From NCBI RefSeq assembly GCF_019670005.1, contig NZ_AP019783.1, positions 1,322,501 through 1,386,500 on the forward strand: a stretch of 64,000 bases of DNA, given 5' to 3'. The notes beneath the pieces are model-generated. The model was not told where the DNA came from. It worked only from the letters and a program-made list of their open reading frames with translations, and did not search any database. This document shows positions 37,549-63,103 of this stretch, in pieces (position 1 is the first letter of the stretch; each line of letters starts with the position of its first letter). The translations under genes were made by a program, and so were the position numbers. The stretch comes from Methylomagnum ishizawai. Lineage in GTDB: Bacteria > Pseudomonadota > Gammaproteobacteria > Methylococcales > Methylococcaceae.

Positions 37549-38577
37549 TTATTGGCAGGTGCCCACGAGGATGGTCCCGCCCTGGCCCACGCCGACGAAG
37601 CGGCCATGGGCCCAGGCGATATCGGTCAAGGCGGCGCTGGTGGCCGGGGTTTGGAGCGTCCAGGCCACGCCATCCGGGCTGGTCAACAGCGCGCCTTGAT
37701 CCCCCACGGCCACGAACCGGCCCGCGCCCCAGGCCACGCCATATAGTGTGGCGGTGGTGTTCGAGGTTTGGGTGTCCCAGACCGCGCCGTCCGGGCTGGT
37801 CAGGATGGCACCTCCCGCCCCCACGGCGACGAATTTCCCCGCCCCCCAAGCGACGCCCATGAGCCACTGATCGGTCCCGGAATCGTGCCCGGTCCAATGG
37901 AGGCCGTCCGGGCTGGTCAGGACAGTGCCGACAGGGCTCCCGTCGCCCGCCAGCCCGATCCCGACCACCACGAACCGGCCATGGCCCCGGGCGATATCGG
38001 TCAGCGTGGGCGAACTGAGCGAAGTATTGCCAAGTAGCCGCGCCGTCCAGCGTTTCCCGGTCGGGCTGGTGAGGATCGCCCCGTAATCGCCCACGGCTAC
38101 GAACCGGCCACGGCCCCAGGCCACGGCGAGGAGCCGGTTGCCGGTGGCGGCGATGGGCGTCCAGCGCTTGCCGTTCGGGCTGATCGCGATGGTCCTGCCC
38201 TCGTAGGATTGATAACCACCGTCCGTGGGGAAACAAGAGAACGGGTTGCCGGGGTCGCTACAGGTTGGCTGGGCGGTTTGCAGACTGTCCGCCCCCACCG
38301 CCACGAACTTGTTGCCGCCCCTGGCGATGTCGAAATAGAGGCCGGCAAGGGTCGCGGTGGGGGTCCAGGCCATGCCGGTGGGACTGGCGCTGACGGAACC
38401 CTGGTGGTCGACGGCCACGAACCGGCCCGCGCCCCAGGCCACGCCGGATAAATCGCCGGTGCCGCTGGAGACGGCGGGCGGGTTCCAGGCGATTTGGCAT
38501 TGCTTGGCTTGGGAGGGGCCGGAGGCGGTCAAGATCCATAAGGGAAGGAGCGCGGCGATCAGGCGGGTTTTGTTCAT
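37549..38577 (-). CDS. Secreted BNR-repeat beta-propeller protein
   Basis: A 342-residue protein with a signal peptide (LIAALLPLWILTASGPSQA). It consists of about seven repeats of the form GVAWGAGRFVAVGDQGALLTSPDG..W, the sialidase/BNR (Asp-box like) pattern of a propeller. Nothing marks a sialidase active site, so the role is probably binding or structural. Four Cys residues may form disulfides. It lies 93 bases downstream of the GH94 gene on the same strand. Confidence 0.7.
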   Translation of the reverse strand: MNKTRLIAALLPLWILTASGPSQAKQCQIAWNPPAVSSGTGDLSGVAWGAGRFVAVDHQGSVSASPTGMAWTPTATLAGLYFDIARGGNKFVAVGADSLQTAQPTCSDPGNPFSCFPTDGGYQSYEGRTIAISPNGKRWTPIAATGNRLLAVAWGRGRFVAVGDYGAILTSPTGKRWTARLLGNTSLSSPTLTDIARGHGRFVVVGIGLAGDGSPVGTVLTSPDGLHWTGHDSGTDQWLMGVAWGAGKFVAVGAGGAILTSPDGAVWDTQTSNTTATLYGVAWGAGRFVAVGDQGALLTSPDGVAWTLQTPATSAALTDIAWAHGRFVGVGQGGTILVGTCQ

Positions 38578-50976: not shown

Positions 50977-51053
50977 GGCAACGTAGCTCAGTCGGTTAGA
51001 GCACCGCATTCATAATGCGGGTGTCGCAGGTTCGAGTCCCGCCGTTGCTACCA
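50977..51053 (+). tRNA. tRNA-Met (CAT), elongator
   Basis: Full cloverleaf of 77 bases with encoded CCA. Acceptor GGCAACG/CGTTGCT, D-arm GCTCAGTCGGTTAGAGC, anticodon stem CCGCA around TTCATAA, and T-arm GCAGGTTCGAGTCCCGC. The G1-U72 wobble is tolerable. The adjacent integrase shows that its 3' end is the prophage attachment site. Confidence 0.95.
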
Positions 51054-53423: not shown

Positions 53424-53786
53424 TCAGGCGGCGTTGGCTGGGGTTTCGGTTGTTTCGGGTGTGCGACCGGGTTGAGGTTGAGATTCCGCAACGTTCCAGA
53501 TTGTGCGCTTGCCTTGTTCGTTGGTTTGACGGAAGGCCTGGATGATCTGGCGTTCCCGTTCGTTCAACAAATCTTCGTCGCAATTCAGCACATAAGCCTC
53601 GGAGACTTCCAAGACTTTCGCCAGCCGTTTGTAGGTCGAAACCTTCGCTTCGCTCTTGCCGAGTTCGTAGCCGTTCAGCGTGGAGGGTTTCAGGCCCGGC
53701 ACGCGGTCGCAAACCTCTTGGAGCGTCCAATTTTTGGCGTCGCGGGCAGCTTTGAGCCGTAATCCGATGATGGTGGTTTCGTCCAT
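53424..53786 (-). CDS. CI-type phage repressor (XRE helix-turn-helix)
   Basis: A 120-residue protein. The XRE helix-turn-helix is in residues 8-65 (LRLKAARDAKNWTLQEVCDRVPGLKPSTLNGYELGK). The tail (NERERQIIQAFRQTNEQGKRT) is short, with no LexA-like Ser-Lys protease domain, so induction is not by classical RecA self-cleavage. ATG 53786 has no clear ribosome site upstream. It is divergent from the Cro-type gene with operator 3 between them. Confidence 0.82.
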   Translation of the reverse strand: MDETTIIGLRLKAARDAKNWTLQEVCDRVPGLKPSTLNGYELGKSEAKVSTYKRLAKVLEVSEAYVLNCDEDLLNERERQIIQAFRQTNEQGKRTIWNVAESQPQPGRTPETTETPANAA

Positions 53787-53846
53787 AGTCAAATTGTCAG
53801 CGGGGGATGGGCGGGTGGCTATCAAATAATCTCGTAAATTTTGGTC

Positions 53847-53875
53847 TTGACAATTACGAATATCTCGTAAGAATA
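53847..53875 (+). promoter_or_regulatory. Rightward early promoter with operator site 3
   Basis: TTGACA (53847-53852) is followed by inverted repeat TTACGA-ATATC-TCGTAA (53854-53870), which fills the spacer up to a weak -10 (AGAATA). It shares the core of sites 1 and 2, placing repressor binding right on the promoter. A half-site CTCGTAAATTTT lies at 53831-53842. Confidence 0.7.
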
Positions 53876-53883
53876 GGGTTTCC

Positions 53884-54135
53884 ATGAGCAAGATGACCTT
53901 GAGCGATTTCATTAGGCAAAAAGGCGATGAGGCCGTGGCCGGGGCATGCGGGGTGAAACCCCGTACCGCCGCCGATTGGCGGCGCGGCGACCGCGTGCCG
54001 TTGGCGAAGTATCACCGTGCGCTGCTGGACCTGGGGTTGAGCATCGAGGGCATTTGCGCCGCGAACGGCCCGCCCCGCCAGAAGCGCCGGTATGTGCGGC
54101 GGTATCCCGCGCTCGAATCCCCTCCGGTCCGGTGA
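53884..54135 (+). CDS. Cro/YdaS-type DNA-binding protein
   Basis: An 83-residue protein with a small helix-turn-helix (LSDFIRQKGDEAVAGACGVKPRTAADWRRGDRVPL), the form of Cro/YdaS-like proteins. The tail is basic (RQKRRYVRRYP). It is the first rightward early gene and diverges from the repressor gene, so it likely competes for the same operators. ATG 53884 is nine bases from the operator's promoter end, with AGGG upstream. Confidence 0.75.
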   Translation: MSKMTLSDFIRQKGDEAVAGACGVKPRTAADWRRGDRVPLAKYHRALLDLGLSIEGICAANGPPRQKRRYVRRYPALESPPVR

Positions 54136-54414: not shown

Positions 54415-54629
54415 CGCTGGACTTGCCGATTCCGGCGGGGTTGTGGTTCCGCTTGGAGTCGGCGGCGAACCTGCGCGGATGCACGGTCGAGGAATTCGCG
54501 GCCCGGATCATTACGCGGGAGGTCGCCATCGAGCATTTGGTGGGCGGGGACACGGACGCCTTGGTCGCCGATTTCATCGCCGGATTCCAGGCCCAGGCCG
54601 GAACCGGCCCGGACCCGGAGTGCGAGTGA
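54402..54629 (+). CDS. Small phage protein, start uncertain
   Basis: About 75 residues (VRAITLDLPIPAGLWFRLESAANLRGCTVEEFAARIITREV) with the same strand-helix-helix layout as the previous gene, so perhaps a second ribbon-helix-helix protein. The GTG at 54402 overlaps the previous gene; a TTG at 54354 is the other choice. It ends in a TGATG overlap with the muramidase gene. Confidence 0.45.
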   Translation: MRAITLDLPIPAGLWFRLESAANLRGCTVEEFAARIITREVAIEHLVGGDTDALVADFIAGFQAQAGTGPDPECE

Positions 54630-55186
54630 TGACTGGAATGAGCAATGCGTTTTTGCGGGCGTTCCGCGAGGTGGTTGGCATCGAGGGGCGGTATAGCAAC
54701 CATCCGGCGGATTCCGGTGGGGAGACCCTGTACGGCATCACGCTGGCGACCGCCCGTGCGGCGGGCTACACCGGCCCTATGAAGTTGATGCCGCTGAGCG
54801 AGGCCCGCCGTATCTACAAGGGGGAGTTTTGGGACAAGTTGAATTTGGATGCCATCGCGGATACCTCGCCGGAGGTGGCGCTGGAGGTGTTCGAGCAGGG
54901 GGTGAACATGGGTATCGCCCGCGCCGGGCGGAACCTACAGAGCGCTTTGAACGTGCTGAACCGGGCCGGGACCGATTACCCGGATGTGTCGGTGGACGGC
55001 AAGGTCGGGCCGGTGACCGTCCGTGCGTTGTTCGGTTTGAACCAGCGCCGCAAGACGGACGGTTTGAAGGCGTTATGCCGGGCGTTGAATGTCCAGCAAG
55101 GGGCGTTCTACCTTGAGCTGGCCGGGCGTAGGGAGAAGGATGAGTCGTTCGTGCTGGGCTGGTTGCTGAATCGGGTGGCCTTGTGA
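54629..55186 (+). CDS. GH108 N-acetylmuramidase (endolysin-type)
   Basis: A 185-residue protein. Residues 5-95 are the GH108 lysozyme-like domain with EVVGIEGRYSNHPADSGGETLYGIT, in which the Glu of the EG motif is the catalytic residue. Residues 100-180 are a peptidoglycan-binding domain (DGKVGPVTVRALFGLN...). It should cut the glycan chain of peptidoglycan for lysis. No signal peptide, so a holin is needed. Its place in the early region, far from the holin candidates, is unusual. Confidence 0.88.
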   Translation: MTGMSNAFLRAFREVVGIEGRYSNHPADSGGETLYGITLATARAAGYTGPMKLMPLSEARRIYKGEFWDKLNLDAIADTSPEVALEVFEQGVNMGIARAGRNLQSALNVLNRAGTDYPDVSVDGKVGPVTVRALFGLNQRRKTDGLKALCRALNVQQGAFYLELAGRREKDESFVLGWLLNRVAL

Positions 55187-55223: not shown

Positions 55224-55520
55224 GTGGCCGTGCTTTACACCCATCCCGCCCGGCGCTATCCTCTTTTCCGCTCCCCGGACGCATCCGGGGCCGGGTTTGA
55301 CAGCCTGGAAAACTATCTGGCGCATAGCCCCCAATTCCGCGTAACGGGCGTTTTTTACGCCCGGAATCCGCTCAGAGTTCAATGGCGGGGTGCATGGGAC
55401 ACCGCAAGGTGTGCCGGTTCCCAGATGGCCGGTCTGTCAACCTATCGCATCCCGTCACCATATCGTTTGACAGCGACGGTGACGGTTCCAAGCTTTACAT
55501 CTGGAGTCCGTCATGGCTAA
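55224..55520 (+). CDS. Small phage ORF, unrecognised
   Basis: A possible 98-residue protein beginning with GTG (AVLYTHPARRYPLFRSPDASGAGF...). The composition is rich in Arg, Ser, Tyr and Phe. Its end overlaps the next gene by ATGGCTAA. It recalls the poorly defined small reading frames (Ash/Icd type) found just before Rha genes in other prophages, but I cannot confirm a family. Confidence 0.35.
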   Translation: MAVLYTHPARRYPLFRSPDASGAGFDSLENYLAHSPQFRVTGVFYARNPLRVQWRGAWDTARCAGSQMAGLSTYRIPSPYRLTATVTVPSFTSGVRHG

Positions 55521-56714: not shown

Positions 56715-56845
56715 AATATGGCCGTCGCGCAGCGACACCTTTTGGGACTGGGCCCCGGTTTTTTTTTCGCCCGAATCCGGGCCAACCCCGGACCCCGTGG
56801 GCTGAAGCGGACACGGAGACTCAGCAAAAAGCCGGGAGGCGTTGA
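56696..56845 (+). CDS. Possible 49-residue linking ORF
   Basis: Short frame (MPAALVKYGRRAATPFGTG...) from inside the previous gene to a TGATG overlap with the primase gene. It contains the run of nine T residues at 56759-56767. The chain of overlaps favours translation; no family resemblance. Confidence 0.3.
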   Translation: MPAALVKYGRRAATPFGTGPRFFFRPNPGQPRTPWAEADTETQQKAGRR

Positions 56846-59613
56846 TGGCCGCCCCGGACCGGATCGATACCCGCGCCTTGCTGGCGGGGGTGGATATTGT
56901 CGAGGTGGTGCGCGGCTACCTGGGCCGCGACGCCCTCAGGAAGGAGGGCGCGGAATGGGCGGCGTGCTGCCCGTTCCACACCGAGGCGACGCCCTCGTTC
57001 AAGGTGAACCCGGCCAAGCAGATGTACCACTGCTTCGGGTGCGGCGCGAACGGGGACGCTATCAAGTTCGTGCGGGACTATGAGCGGGTGGGGTTCCGCA
57101 AGGCGGTGGAAATCCTGGGCGGCGGGGCGTTCGCGCCCGCGTCCAGGCCTCCGGCCAGCCCGGCCCCGCCAGCGCGGAAAGCCCGTAGCGATTGGACGCC
57201 CATCGTCCCGGCGGATGCCGATGCCTTCGCGGCCAAACTGAGCCACGGGCACCGGGGCATGCCGGAAGCGGTGTACACCTACCGGGATCAACAAGGGCGG
57301 TTGCTGGGCTACACCCGGCGCTTCCGCACCTCGGACGGCGGCAAGGAAGTCTTGCCGCTGACCTGGGCGCGGAACGAAGCGGGGGAGCGCATGTGGCGCG
57401 ACCTGGCGTTCCCGGTGCCGCGCCCGTTGTATGGATTGGATCGGCTGCCCGGCGACAGGCCGGTGCTGATCGTCGAGGGAGAAAAATGCGTGGATGTCGC
57501 ATCCGCGCACGTCGAAACGGATTTCGTGGTGGTGAGCTGGCCCGGCGGTGGCAAAGCCGTCGATAAGGCCGATTGGTCGCCGTTGGCGGGCCGGATCGTC
57601 GCGATCTGGCCGGACTGCGACGCCAAGCGGGTCAAGCCGACCCGCGAGGAAACGGCGGCGGGCGTGGACCCGCTGTCGAAACCGTTGCTGCCGGAGGCGG
57701 AGCAACCGGGGATGAAGGCGGCGCGCCTGATCATCGCGCAACTCCACGCCCTGGAACCGCCCGCGGTGGTGAACTTGGTGGCGATTCCCCGCCCCGGCGA
57801 GAAGCCGGACGGCTGGGACATCGCCGATGCCATCGGGGAGGGGCTGACCGGCGTCGCGCTGGTGGCCCATATCCGTAAAGGGTCCGTCCACATCGCGCCC
57901 GAGGCGCATCGAACCCAGACCTGTAGGACCGATGATGGTCCCCCACCCCCGGCTACCGTGTCGCATGGTTCCGGGCGTGTCGCGAGGCTGGGTGGCGATA
58001 CGGCGCGGCCAGGGGGCGGCCCGGACGATGGCGGAGGAGGCGGCGAGGGCAGGCCGGAGGTCAAGATCGGCCCCGACCGGCTCATCAGCGCCATGTTGGA
58101 AGCGGAGCGGGTGCTGTTCGCGGGCACCGACCCGCCCTTCTTCGAGCGGGGCGGGATATTGACGCGGACGGCCTACATCGACCGGGTGCGCGAGCGCCAG
58201 GGCGAGGTAGTGGTTGAACCCGGCGCTTTGACCCTGGTGCCGGTCAACGTGGGTTGGCTACGGCGGCGGATGCAGGTGGCGTGCAGGTTCGTGTCCTGGA
58301 ATAGCCGGGCCGAAAGTTGGCTGCCCTGCAACCTGCCGAAGGAGTACGCGGAATCGTACATCGACGGCAACGAATGGATGGTGCCGGTGCTGCGGGCCGT
58401 GGTGGAAGCCCCGGTCTTGCGCCCGGATGGGTCGATCCTATCGAGGCCGGGCTTCGATCCGAAGACCGGGATTTATCTGGCCAGCGAGGTGAAATGGAAG
58501 CTGCCGCCGAACCGGACCCAGGGCGGAAGGATCGATCCGGGGACCGATACGGCGGTGCAATGGGCGCGGGCGCAGTTCGAGGACTTGTTCAACCCGTTCA
58601 AGCCCGAGGCCGGGCCGGATATCGCGGTGCTGATCACGGCGGTGTTGACCGGCCTGGTCAAGACCCAGTGCGGCCCGGCGCCGGGGTTCATCATCACCGC
58701 CCCGGTGTTCGGTTCGGGCAAGGGCAAGCTGGCGGACATCATCGGCATCATCCTGACCGGGCGCACCGTGCCCATGATGACGATGCCGGTGGATTCCAAG
58801 GGCAAGGCCGACGAGAAGGAGTTCAAGAAGGCGCTGTTCGCGACCTTGTTGGGCGGCGAGCGCATCGTCTGCATCGACGAGGTGAAGCGGACGCTGGCCT
58901 CCCCGACCTTGGATTCGATGCTGACCCAGGAAACGGTGTTCGACCGGGTGCTGGGGGTGTCGAAGAACGCCACCGTGCGGCCCACGGATAGCCTGTTCCT
59001 GGCGCTGGGCAACAACGTCACGGTATCGGCGGACAGCTCGCGGCGCTGGCTGCGGTGCTATCTGAATCCGAACTGCGCGGACCCGCACCTCCGGGTGTTC
59101 GACCGCGACGCCATCCTGCACGCCAAGGAAAACCGGGTGAAGCTGGTGTGCGCGGCCCTGACCTTGCTGCACGCCTATGTCATGGCGGGTTCGCCGGATA
59201 TGGGGGTGCGCCTGGGCAGTTTCGAGCGCTGGGCGGCCCTGGTGCCGTCCGCCGTGCGCTGGCTGGGATTGCCGGACCCGTGCAAGACCCAGGAAGCCTG
59301 GAAGGAACAGGACGAGGACCGGGCCGACTTGGCGCGGCTGCTGGAAGCCTGGAGCGAGCGCTACGGGGATATTCCCGTGACGGCGCAGGAGGTTTGCCGG
59401 GAAATGGAGGACCGGCCCAAGCACGAACCCAATGCGAAATTGCTCGGGGTCCTGAAGGACATTTGCGGCGAGAAAAGCGGGTTCAACGCCAACCGCCTGG
59501 GCGTCCACCTCAGCCGCAAGGGCAAGCGGGTGGTCGATGGGAAGCGGTTCGAGGATGCCGGGAAGAAAAGCCACAAGACGCAGTGGAAGGTGGTCGAGGT
59601 CGGCAAGGCGTGA
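56845..59613 (+). CDS. Phage DNA primase-helicase (CHC2/TOPRIM)
   Basis: A 922-residue replication protein. Residues 1-95 form a DnaG-type CHC2 zinc finger (CCPFHTEATPSFKVNP...YHCFGCGANGDAIKF; Cys42, His45, Cys63, Cys66). A TOPRIM-like domain follows at ~195-330 (VLIVEGEKCVDVA). A Pro/Gly-rich linker (~355-400) leads to an ATPase module with P-loop VFGSGKGKLADI near residue 620 and a Walker-B-like ERIVCIDEVKR. It should prime and unwind DNA at the phage origin; the iterons lie directly behind it. ATG 56845 follows GGGAGG. Confidence 0.88.
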   Translation: MAAPDRIDTRALLAGVDIVEVVRGYLGRDALRKEGAEWAACCPFHTEATPSFKVNPAKQMYHCFGCGANGDAIKFVRDYERVGFRKAVEILGGGAFAPASRPPASPAPPARKARSDWTPIVPADADAFAAKLSHGHRGMPEAVYTYRDQQGRLLGYTRRFRTSDGGKEVLPLTWARNEAGERMWRDLAFPVPRPLYGLDRLPGDRPVLIVEGEKCVDVASAHVETDFVVVSWPGGGKAVDKADWSPLAGRIVAIWPDCDAKRVKPTREETAAGVDPLSKPLLPEAEQPGMKAARLIIAQLHALEPPAVVNLVAIPRPGEKPDGWDIADAIGEGLTGVALVAHIRKGSVHIAPEAHRTQTCRTDDGPPPPATVSHGSGRVARLGGDTARPGGGPDDGGGGGEGRPEVKIGPDRLISAMLEAERVLFAGTDPPFFERGGILTRTAYIDRVRERQGEVVVEPGALTLVPVNVGWLRRRMQVACRFVSWNSRAESWLPCNLPKEYAESYIDGNEWMVPVLRAVVEAPVLRPDGSILSRPGFDPKTGIYLASEVKWKLPPNRTQGGRIDPGTDTAVQWARAQFEDLFNPFKPEAGPDIAVLITAVLTGLVKTQCGPAPGFIITAPVFGSGKGKLADIIGIILTGRTVPMMTMPVDSKGKADEKEFKKALFATLLGGERIVCIDEVKRTLASPTLDSMLTQETVFDRVLGVSKNATVRPTDSLFLALGNNVTVSADSSRRWLRCYLNPNCADPHLRVFDRDAILHAKENRVKLVCAALTLLHAYVMAGSPDMGVRLGSFERWAALVPSAVRWLGLPDPCKTQEAWKEQDEDRADLARLLEAWSERYGDIPVTAQEVCREMEDRPKHEPNAKLLGVLKDICGEKSGFNANRLGVHLSRKGKRVVDGKRFEDAGKKSHKTQWKVVEVGKA

Positions 59614-59633
59614 GCCTGGAAATCCCAAAGTAC

Positions 59634-59909
59634 CAGACTCACGGCAGACTCACGGCAGACTCACGGGGATAACCGATTGAATTGGAAGGGGTTTATGGCC
59701 TTTCCGTGAGTCTGCTGAGTTTGGATTCCATTTCTACGCGCGGGCGGTTTCGCGCAATGCCATGGCCCACAGGGGGAAAGGATGAAAAAGCTTCCGCGTG
59801 AATATGGAAAGCAGACTCACCAGACTCACCAAAGCAGGGTGAATGCTTTGGAAATCATCGGCTTGCGCCCGTGAGTCTGCCGTGAGTTTGCCGTGAGTCT
59901 GGGAGTCTG
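59634..59909. repeat. Iteron cluster, likely prophage replication origin
   Basis: Ten copies of a 9-11 bp word CAGACTCAC(GG) or its complement lie in one 276-base gap. Forward copies: 59634, 59645 and 59656 (three perfect tandem 11-mers), and 59812 and 59821. Reverse copies: 59704-59714 (perfect), 59871-59879, 59882-59890 (one mismatch), 59893-59901 and 59901-59909 (one mismatch). Between them is a relatively AT-rich patch (59670-59760). No gene is seen in 59614-60014. Repeats right behind a replication protein gene are typical of iteron origins. Confidence 0.75.
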
Positions 59910-60014
59910 CCCGGCGGCGTGCGCTTACCGCTTATCCGGTGGGTGCCGGTCGGGGTTGGGTCCTGTCGCCACGAAGGTGGGGGGATGGTCGGTTTAGCAA
60001 CGGGGAATGAGGGA

Positions 60015-60467
60015 ATGAGGCAGGGGAATCCAATCCAGAAAACGGTCACGCCCATCGTCGCCCTGGACGTGGTGGAGGCCACGTTGAGGCTCTGGGGCGA
60101 ATATGCGGCGTCCGGGGCGGCGGCGGACGCGGAGTTACGCGGTTATCCCAGGCGTAGCGCCCACGTCCCGCGCCCGCCGCGCTCCAGCCGTTGCGGCCAC
60201 GACCCGGACCGGGCGGCGGCGGCCCAGGTGCGGACCCTGGCCGGATTGGTCGAAGAAATCCTGCCCCAGATCGAACCCCGGTTGCGGGTGATCCTGCGCC
60301 AGCGCTACCAGTTGCGGATGCCGTGCCGCACGGGACGGGAGGATGTGCGGTTGGTGGGCGCGGGCGGCGGGCGGATGGGCGAGCGGGAATACCAATCGCT
60401 ACGGAAACTGGCGGTGGAACGGGTAGGGCAATTGCTGGGTCATCGTTTGCGCCAGTCGATACGCTAG
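60015..60467 (+). CDS. Putative phage late-gene regulator (Q/ArpU-like)
   Basis: A 150-residue basic protein. The C-terminal part (EPRLRVILRQRYQLRMPCR...GEREYQSLRKLAVERVGQLLG) resembles the sigma-region-4-like helix-turn-helix in phage antiterminators and ArpU/RinA-type late activators. Its position between replication genes and the lysis/packaging genes, right before a strong terminator, fits such a role. ATG 60015 has GAGGG close upstream; longer starts exist. The function is inferred. Confidence 0.55.
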   Translation: MRQGNPIQKTVTPIVALDVVEATLRLWGEYAASGAAADAELRGYPRRSAHVPRPPRSSRCGHDPDRAAAAQVRTLAGLVEEILPQIEPRLRVILRQRYQLRMPCRTGREDVRLVGAGGGRMGEREYQSLRKLAVERVGQLLGHRLRQSIR

Positions 60468-61262: not shown

Positions 61263-61620
61263 GTCGAGGCTGGCGCAAATCCGCGCGATGTTCCGCGAGC
61301 GGGGGTTCGATCCCATCGCGGTGGTGGTCGAGGAAATCCAGGCCGGGCCACGGGTGGTCGGCGGGATCGTCATGGGCTTGTCGGCGTCGGAAACGGTGTC
61401 GGCGGCGCTCGGCGTGGCGAAGCTGGAAGCGGAGTGGGAGAAGATCGAACTCGCCAAGAACCCCCCGGCGGGGAAGCGCGGCGGGGCGCGGGTCACGGTC
61501 AACCCGGACGGGTCGGTGCAGACCGATATTTTCGCGGACCTGGAAAGCATTTCGGATGAGCAACTCGAACAACGCATCGCCCGCCGCCAGGAAGCGCTCG
61601 GAATTGTTGGCGCTGGATAG
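61225..61620 (+). CDS. Hypothetical phage protein, possible small terminase
   Basis: A 131-residue protein placed directly before TerL, where TerS is usual. It contains RLAQIRAMFRERGFDPIAVVVEEIQA and a helical central region (ETVSAALGVAKLEAEWEKIELAKN). No clear TerS helix-turn-helix, so the assignment rests on position. It overlaps TerL by 65 bases. Confidence 0.45.
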   Translation: MEAGEKPQAGRVESRLAQIRAMFRERGFDPIAVVVEEIQAGPRVVGGIVMGLSASETVSAALGVAKLEAEWEKIELAKNPPAGKRGGARVTVNPDGSVQTDIFADLESISDEQLEQRIARRQEALGIVGAG

Positions 61621-63103
61621 GGAGCTGGCTGAGCTGGAACGGCGGCGGGCGCGGCGGAAGTTGTTCACGTACTACCCGGAGACCGGCCCGCTCCGGCGCG
61701 GGTTGTACCCCAAGCACCTGGAGTTTTTCCGGGCCGGGAAGGATTTCCAGGAGCGCTGCGCGATGGCGGCGAACCGGATCGGCAAAACCGAGGGGATGGG
61801 CGGCTACGAGTTCGCCCTGCACCTGACGGGCCGGTACCCGGAGTGGTGGCCGGGGCGGCGGTTCGATAGGCCGGTCAAGGCCATCGCGGCGGGCAAGCTG
61901 AAGGAATCCACCCGCGACATCGTGCAGGAGAAATTGTTCGGTCCCATCCTCTACCAGGTCGGCGGCAAGGCGTTCGCGGGCACGGGCCTGGTGCCGGGCG
62001 ACGATATCGCCAAGGCGCTGTGGCGCACGGGGATCAACCCGCCGATGGCCGACACGGTATATGTCGTCCATTGGAAGGAGGGCCAACCGGATGGCTATTC
62101 GATTTGCAAGTTGAAGAGCTACGAGCAAGGCCGGGCGGTGTTCGAGGGGTTCGAGGCCGATGTGTTCTGGGGCGACGAGGAGCCGCCGTGGGAGGTCTAC
62201 GACGAGGCGATGGTCCGGCTCATGACGACCGGCGGGCTGTCGATGCTGACCTACACGCCGCTGGACGGCATCACCGAGGTGGTGGAGCTGTTCATGCCGG
62301 GGATCGGCATCGGGCCGGTGCCGGAGTCCACCACCAAGTACACGGTCAACGCGGGGTGGGACGACGCGCCGCATTTGAGCCCGGAGGAAATCGCCAAGCG
62401 CCGGGCGGAAACGCCGAAAAGGTTGTTGGCGGCGCGGTCGCAGGGGCTGCCCGTGCTGGGGTCGGGGCTGGTCTTCCCGGTGGACGACGAGGGGATCGTG
62501 GTCGATCCGTTCCCCCTCCCGGACCATTGGCCGCGCATCTGCGGGCAGGATTTCGGGTGGGACCATCCGCACGCCAACGTGTGGCTGGCCTGGGACCGGG
62601 AGACCGACACCGTGTACGTCTACGACGAGTACGCGGCGTCGGAATCGTCGGCACCGATCCATGCCTCGGCGATCAAGGCGCGGGGGGATTGGATCCCGGT
62701 GGCCTGGCCCGCCGATGGATTGCAGCACGAGAAGGGGTCGGGCACCCAGTTGGCCGGGCAATACCGGGCCGAAGGCGTGGCGATGCTGCACGAACACGCG
62801 AGGTTCCCGGAGGTGGGGGAAAGCACCGAGACGGAGTCCAGCCGGGTGAGCGTCGAGGCCGGGCTGAACGAGATGTTGACCCGGATGCAAACCGGGCGTT
62901 GGAAGGTGTTCCGGGTGTGCCAGGGCTGGCTGAAGGAAAAGGCCATCTACCGAAGGGACAAGAAAGGCAAGATCGTGAAGACCAACGACGACCGGATCGA
63001 CGCCAGCCGCTACGGGCTGATGATGCTCAGGTTCGCCCGGACCCGGCCCGTGGTGGAAGCCTCCCTGTCCGGCTATTACAGCCGCAAGGCGGGTTGGCGC
63101 TGA
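61556..63103 (+). CDS. Phage terminase large subunit
   Basis: A 515-residue packaging motor. The ATPase half has the Walker A variant AANRIGKTEG (71-80) and a Walker B-like VFWGDEEPP near residue 203. The nuclease half has CGQDFGWDHPHANVWLAWD and DDRIDASRYGLMML with the metal-binding Asp residues. It cuts and pumps DNA into the prohead. The ATG at 61556 is the first start that gives a compact N-terminus (SELLALDRELAELERRRARRK); an open frame upstream is only a shadow. Confidence 0.92.
   Translation: MSNSNNASPAARKRSELLALDRELAELERRRARRKLFTYYPETGPLRRGLYPKHLEFFRAGKDFQERCAMAANRIGKTEGMGGYEFALHLTGRYPEWWPGRRFDRPVKAIAAGKLKESTRDIVQEKLFGPILYQVGGKAFAGTGLVPGDDIAKALWRTGINPPMADTVYVVHWKEGQPDGYSICKLKSYEQGRAVFEGFEADVFWGDEEPPWEVYDEAMVRLMTTGGLSMLTYTPLDGITEVVELFMPGIGIGPVPESTTKYTVNAGWDDAPHLSPEEIAKRRAETPKRLLAARSQGLPVLGSGLVFPVDDEGIVVDPFPLPDHWPRICGQDFGWDHPHANVWLAWDRETDTVYVYDEYAASESSAPIHASAIKARGDWIPVAWPADGLQHEKGSGTQLAGQYRAEGVAMLHEHARFPEVGESTETESSRVSVEAGLNEMLTRMQTGRWKVFRVCQGWLKEKAIYRRDKKGKIVKTNDDRIDASRYGLMMLRFARTRPVVEASLSGYYSRKAGWR

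Follow-up and report, generated by a model that had tools for sequence, protein, structure and literature searches.

Iteron origins placed 3' of the gene for a self-loading helicase are a known kind of replication system, and the dyad design beside the initiator has previously been described mainly for phage satellites and some plasmids. Origins of the lambda/P22 type hold their iterons within the coding sequence of the initiator gene, and in P4 two cis sites far from each other, ori1 and crr, are used. The origins bound by SaPI Rep and SCCmec Cch2 lie immediately 3' of the respective genes, the C-terminal domain of SaPI Rep being the part reported to recognise the origin (PMC7581432). Replication of the Streptomyces plasmid pWTY27 is reported to require repA, repB and 300 bp 3' of repA; RepA shifts and footprints the stretch 3' of repA, where GTGGGAAC repeats run in both directions, and bidirectional replication was inferred by the authors (PMC3583192). 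For the crenarchaeal plasmid pRN1 (ORF904), the described origin follows the rep gene on its 3' side and is a 100-bp inverted repeat or stem-loop, whose stem measures 21 nt and whose loop 58 nt at 75 °C; Bordetella phage BIP-1 is reported to have a similar stem-loop 3' of its replication protein, so that a 3' inverted-repeat origin in a phage has precedent (PMC4234260). Apart from BIP-1, the titles and abstract openings listed in searches of the open literature described no phage with such an origin.

In the window, that is, the whole 64-kb stretch of DNA analysed, two mirror sets of iterons lie directly 3' of a prophage primase-helicase gene, and this layout recurs after homologous genes with other words. 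Judging from sequence comparison, the cluster is very probably the replication origin of the prophage, at which the self-loading primase-helicase would bind the two mirror iteron sets and start bidirectional replication. Unlike the iterons of lambda/P22-type origins, these lie past the stop codon, except for one copy that overlaps it. The likeness to PICI/SaPI elements (SaPIbov1, SaPI5, EcCICFT073) comprises an origin directly 3' of rep, which is sometimes fused to pri, two mirror iteron sets around a spacer that is modestly A+T-richer in the window element, and a D5/SF3-like fold of the helicase together with a DNA-binding domain at the C terminus, both predicted here. The window primase, however, is of the CHC2/TOPRIM type, whereas those of SaPIbov1 and SaPI5 are reported to be of the AEP type (PMC7581432); the window helicase half has no Pfam family, and its carrier is a phage-sized prophage rather than a helper-dependent satellite. 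Because terminase, portal and head-type genes are present, the prophage is not a PICI and has the replicon type alone in common with one.

The pWTY27 system has a homologous helicase and iterons in both directions within 300 bp after the gene, but it belongs to a plasmid, has a separate primase-polymerase (RepB) and uses the different word given above. P4 alpha likewise joins a TOPRIM-type primase, a helicase and a repeat-binding domain on one protein (PMC4234260). In place of the two cis sites of P4, the window has its exact copies in one compact cluster, with no other within the prophage. The pRN1 description matches in its inverted repeat of about 100 bp 3' of a primase-helicase-winged-helix gene and in its two-ring bidirectional model; pRN1 and BIP-1 differ in being described as stem-loops without iterons and in their archaeo-eukaryotic-type primase (PMC4234260). 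As far as searched, the new elements are the phage-sized prophage carrier with a DnaG-type primase, the absence of any Pfam family for the helicase half, a dyad layout that is shared with loci of the VapE type, and the speed of word change.

Iteron Cluster and Dyad Symmetry

The word under study is the 9-mer CAGACTCAC. Eight exact copies occur in the window, every one inside 59634-59901. Two more copies, each with one mismatch, lie at 59882-59890 and 59901-59909 and bring the total in 59634-59909 to ten, five on each strand; positions 59634-59666 consist of three tandem 11-mers, CAGACTCACGG. The preliminary description, which had counted ten words in both directions within 276 bases and three perfect tandem 11-mers, was accurate on these points. 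The 5.2-Mb genome contains 11 exact copies, eight of them in the cluster and none of the other three inside the prophage ends. With up to one mismatch, 263 copies are found genome-wide, or about 0.014 expected per 276 bp, so the cluster is not due to chance. A scattered host repeat, a possibility raised earlier, is ruled out by the same counts, the word not being dispersed in the host genome.

The first iteron of the main cluster lies 20 bp past the primase stop codon. Two ORFs at the right end of the cluster (59855-60082 on the minus strand and 59919-60467 on the plus strand) matched no PHROG family, and the second matched no Pfam family; the earlier statement that the gap holds no gene therefore stands as far as tested.

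The dyad layout is a feature that the preliminary description overlooked. The copies are arranged with two-fold symmetry about an axis at 59767.5, with four exact mirror pairs at offsets 20/279, 31/268, 42/257 and 92/207 (59614 = 0), every pair summing to 299. By sequence reading, a two-mismatch copy at offset 101 pairs with 198, and the copies at offsets -4 and 287 are unpaired. Four mirror pairs were reached by 1 of 2000 randomised layouts, as computed for row L069, whose sequence is the same as that of the window stretch. The core (59706-59829) has two copies a side, including the degenerate one, to which outer triplets are added (Table 1). The A+T content of the spacer is a modest enrichment over the 36% of the window.

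In a same-genus genome (locus L070), the helicase is 94% identical and is followed by the same repeats with the same word, so that the cluster is kept in a close relative along with the primase-helicase. Between L070 and the window, 1 of 98 iteron positions differs against 17 of 202 spacer positions (Fisher P 0.009).

Table 1. Positions of the primase-helicase gene, the iterons and the inverted repeat in the window.
Feature	Position	Strand	Basis or remark
Primase-helicase gene, 923 aa, TTG start, proposed initiator	56842-59613	+	Pfam, motifs, AlphaFold, fold search
Stretch coding for predicted C-terminal winged helix (aa 848-919), proposed iteron reader	59383-59598	+	Predicted structure
Extra one-mismatch copy, overlaps primase stop codon	59610-59618	-	Exact in L070 (same-genus genome G001)
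Left arm of overall inverted repeat	59633-59740	+	Score 33; control-window 99th percentile 12.3
Iteron 1, mirror partner 59893	59634-59642	+	Word search and mirror test
Iteron 2, mirror partner 59882	59645-59653	+	Word search and mirror test
Iteron 3, mirror partner 59871	59656-59664	+	Word search and mirror test
Iteron 4, inner left, mirror partner 59821	59706-59714	-	Word search and mirror test
Degenerate iteron, two mismatches, mirror partner 59812	59715-59723	-	Sequence reading; unchanged in L070
Central spacer between inner iterons, proposed melting region	59724-59811		A+T 45% (59724-59809)
Right arm of overall inverted repeat	59795-59902	-	Arms pair over 108 bp
Iteron 5, inner right	59812-59820	+	Word search
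Iteron 6, inner right, mirror partner 59706	59821-59829	+	Word search and mirror test
Iteron 7	59871-59879	-	Word search and mirror test
Iteron 8, one mismatch, canonical in L070	59882-59890	-	Word search
Iteron 9	59893-59901	-	Word search and mirror test
Iteron 10, one mismatch, outside dyad	59901-59909	-	Word search

Recurrence of the Layout after Homologous Helicases

Relatives of the helicase half were drawn from the same-genus genome, other genomes, plasmids, phages and viral contigs, giving 116 distinct full-length downstream stretches with the window included, after exclusion of identical, short or N-containing ones; related loci among them are non-independent and fall into 68 groups at 70% identity. 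An element composed of tandem 9-mers, a spacer and an inverted copy, with a word that varies, scored above the control 99th percentile in 77 of the 116, by an inverted-repeat test designed after layouts had been seen in loci. The cut-off came from 232 control windows of the same loci, about 1% of which pass by construction; one of them scored 28, and 232 shuffles scored at most 11.0. At least one element was present in 47 of the 68 groups. By this test, 39 of the 116 stretches following a homologous helicase lack the inverted repeat, among them those of the homologues L078-L082 (host's family and order) and L093 and L094 (host's class).

In 62 of the 77 loci the start of the left arm falls in the interval from 15 bp ahead of the stop codon to 45 bp past it; an internal period of 9 is the best in 53, and the spacer A+T exceeds that of the locus in 75. 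In its minimal form the element consists of three tandem 9-mers, a spacer and the inverted copy, as in L107 (18+ 27+ 36+ 112- 121- 130-). Of the 80 loci among L117-L202 that could be evaluated, an earlier scan by word count had picked out only 6, since the minimal form has few copies. Viral contigs yielded no relatives when scanned with the window helicase half alone and no matches with L071; relatives were found with the L107 protein or a five-sequence alignment.

Plasmid pWTY27 is itself one of these loci (L110), its RepA gene (621-2237) encoding a protein that shares 31% identity with the window helicase across 348 aa (tblastn 4e-28). Run independently of the paper, the word scan returned GTGGGAACC in 10 copies, of which all but one fall within the published interval 338-606. 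The reading of the cluster as an iteron origin, put forward in the preliminary description, is thus well supported by this characterised homologue and by the recurrence of the element, with due regard to the stretches that lack it.

The position of the cluster at the border of the replication and packaging genes would also suit an array of operators for a phage regulator, controlling the late operon (59919 onward) or serving autoregulation of the primase operon, with no origin involved. The prophage encodes an HTH protein at 53424-53909 and a weaker HTH at 53884-54132 (Pfam 0.009, below the cut-off; PHROG 35, repressor, 7e-6) that could act in this way. Mirror symmetry about a long spacer is, however, atypical of operators, and the same layout is found after homologous helicase genes in other gene neighbourhoods, on plasmids and viruses. 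Promoter-like and terminator-like matches were absent from 59500-60100, which is a weak test in such an organism. As the pWTY27 version is moreover reported to be required for replication (PMC3583192), the operator explanation is highly improbable.

A further alternative retains the origin and has the initiator recognise a cruciform or long stem-loop instead of duplex iterons; recognition of this kind has been proposed for pRN1 and was suggested in the case of pWTY27. The pairing of the arms over 108 bp agrees with it, as does the much similar geometry of the pRN1 origin (21-nt stem and 58-nt loop; PMC4234260), and a folded structure was suggested by the pWTY27 authors (PMC3583192). Yet the tandem 9-mers in the arms, with 9 the best lag in the 53 loci noted above, would be needless for a hairpin. 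In SCCmec, binding by Cch2 is reported to be lost on deletion of direct repeats but not on deletion of inverted repeats, and its isolated C-terminal domain binds the duplex (PMC7581432). Recognition of a folded structure is accordingly unlikely.

Relatives of the Primase Half

Twenty-six viral contigs encode proteins related to the primase half. Pfam searches of 10 of these proteins gave seven VapE-like helicases, one DUF5906, one AAA_25 and one with neither; most other loci were assigned to the VapE type by alignment, L025 and L033 by primase search alone. Short DnaG-like matches (L046-L068) were removed ahead of the word scan. Two further loci, L039 and L040, were omitted from the locus counts: their primase ORFs span just 302 and 339 aa, so the 3' stretch does not follow a helicase. 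Downstream of most such genes lie clusters of other words, among them TTCCATACC, TCCTAACC, TCCCAACC, GTCCAACC and GGTTACGCG.

The mirror-pair test covered 28 rows (24 primase-half loci, the window copy L069, and L070, L071 and L086), each compared with 2000 randomised layouts; for L021, where the word scan gave a GC-rich word, GGTATGGAA was chosen by hand. The observed count was reached by at most 5% of the randomised layouts in 20 of the 28 rows; the count was 6 of 6 pairs for L023 and L034 and five pairs for L017, L019, L020, L021 and L022. The remaining eight rows (L011, L014, L015, L016, L018, L033, L038 and L086) were no better than randomised layouts.

Of the 29 distinct primase-half loci, 24 score as positive in the inverted-repeat test; the others are L013, L035, L036 and L037, which have other helicases, and L045. 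Where the same primase is joined to a VapE/DUF5906-type helicase, the element is present in 24 of 25 loci relative to a matched cut-off of 11.0, obtained from 200 control windows. Since at least one of 100 shuffles reached 13.0 and at least one control window 12.5, L033 and L038, both scoring 12.5, are marginal. The spacer A+T is above that of the locus in just 5 of 24 VapE-type loci. The AAA_25 locus L013 has a weak cluster of seven copies and no inverted repeat. A VapE-type model (L034) matched PriRep1 (7pds) with a Z-score of 32.7 over 391 aligned residues at 27% identity. Neither a repeat cluster nor an inverted repeat was found downstream in the cultured phages Bordetella PY223, Bordetella PBb002 and Pseudomonas Dolphis, whose match (39-40% identity) is confined to the primase half.

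Among 24 loci of the VapE/DUF5906 type, 7 whose iteron words differ (L011, L017, L018, L019, L021, L023 and L038) have a separate box, GAAACCCGC, in the origin stretch, compared with 0.008 per 440 bp elsewhere in these loci; the box is perhaps a priming or loading site.

Predicted Fold of the Primase-Helicase

The gene before the cluster had been described as encoding a CHC2/TOPRIM primase-helicase, and the protein analysis agrees. Residues 12-92 form a CHC2 zinc finger (PF01807), followed by EGEK at aa 212 and DCDA at 258, which we take to be TOPRIM-like motifs, GSGKGK at 624 and CIDE at 677. The helicase half (aa 397-923) matched no Pfam family, and Pfam searches of 29 helicase-half members returned one weak DUF5906 match and one TarS_linker, leaving 28 of 29 without a Pfam helicase match. 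Its best PHROGs were 29234 and 10537, both of unknown function, then 19930 (DNA polymerase/primase), and a sequence-only search of solved structures gave just unrelated proteins or a bare P-loop.

The AlphaFold model of aa 397-923, built with 42 relatives, has a pLDDT of 88.9 and a pTM of 0.85. The fold search gave tied matches to vaccinia D5 (8apl, Z 14.3, rmsd 5.4, 319 aligned), the SaPI5 primase-helicase (7ola, Z 13.9, rmsd 4.8, 311 aligned; 7om0, Z 13.8, rmsd 6.9, 361 aligned, reaching model residue 516) and PriRep1 (7pds, Z 13.8, rmsd 7.0, 372 aligned). Foldseek placed an African swine fever virus PrimPol chain first (1.1e-8, TM 0.43 by query length) and SaPI5 7ola_B fifth (6.3e-8, TM 0.38), all TM-scores by query length for the helicase half being below 0.5. 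The end of the 527-aa model comprises helices 452-461, 469-479 and 487-497 and strands 505-513 and 516-523, a two-strand wing. The helicase half is thus predicted to have a D5/SF3-like fold that ends in a winged helix; sharing a fold is by itself no proof of function.

Proposed Mechanism of Initiation

The preliminary description found the initiator not obvious, a view that can be improved upon: homology and the structural model point to the C-terminal half of the primase-helicase, so that the initiator is most probably this protein itself, with the link between word and winged helix being a weak one. The winged helix would bind the 9-bp iterons, and the mirror iteron sets would seat helicase hexamers, probably two, in opposite orientation. 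These hexamers would melt the spacer and travel outwards, while the fused CHC2/TOPRIM primase would prime both forks, with bidirectional theta replication after induction as the expected outcome. A role in strengthening binding or in copy-number control is conceivable for the outer triplets (59634-59664 and 59871-59901). Many prophages, plasmids and viral contigs that are so far uncharacterised, and whose helicases have no Pfam match, thereby gain a probable origin and initiator.

Turnover of the Iteron Word

Similar words were shared by 11% of pairs among the 77 loci below 30% helicase identity and by 20% in each of the classes 30-40, 40-50 and 50-70%, rising to 65% at 70-90% and to 75% (12 pairs) above 90%; shuffled arms gave similar words in 4%. 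Since the words agree only above 70% helicase identity, they change well ahead of the helicases. Such turnover would be expected if elements sharing a cell are selected against reading each other's origin (incompatibility).

The helicase-half blocks whose identity best tracks word similarity, over and above the remainder of the protein, are aa 381-430 (partial rho 0.15; 0.146) and 481-527 (0.13), compared with -0.005 for the stretch 201-350. For aa 441-527 as one block the partial rho is 0.095, a value attained in 7 of 300 permutations, and block 381-430, outside the winged helix, scored higher. This covariation is a weak hint that the C-terminal part may read the iteron word.

It is quite possible, if rather less than probable, that a 3' dyad-iteron origin is general to self-loading helicases of the D5/SF3 kind, whether carried by phages, satellites, plasmids or archaeal elements, instead of being a PICI signature, with the 9-bp word serving as a fast-changing specificity tag. 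With dozens of initiators naturally matched to an origin word, it becomes possible to test directly how self-loading helicases recognise DNA and how origin specificity evolves.

Prophage Context

The prophage adjoins a tRNA-Met gene (50977-51053) next to its integrase and carries a terminase gene (61499-63100), with portal and head-type protein genes downstream; of the P22-like gene order named in the preliminary description, these genes are what the analysis covered. Part of the stretch at the left end has a copy, 82% identical, 64 kb away at C1:1437505-1437594 (G000), and no second copy better than 82% was found; the tRNA-Met end and this copy are candidate attL and attR. Since the candidate attR gives a length of about 64 kb, with portal and head-type genes included, the prophage is phage-sized and no satellite.

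An integrase and a candidate attR suggest an excisable element, and iterons running in both directions could then mark a centromere-like partition or incompatibility site in a prophage able to live as a plasmid. The subset of ORFs scanned contained no ParA or ParB family match, however, and the element recurs next to the helicase gene, which makes a partition site extremely improbable as compared with the replication origin favoured here.

C4-type RNAs act as immunity RNAs in P1/P7 and P4. A C4 antisense RNA was detected at 55378-55462 on the plus strand (RF01695, 64.3 bits, gathering threshold 45), upstream of a pRha gene and the primase; another lies at L070:325-411, and none was found in the 13 scanned loci with primase-half relatives. 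The early region ahead of the primase also contains an endolysin-type gene (GH108/PG_binding_3, 54569-55183). Elsewhere in the window, CCAGCCCG recurs within 37675-38062, partly at a spacing of 117 bp, perhaps as part of a repeat-containing gene.
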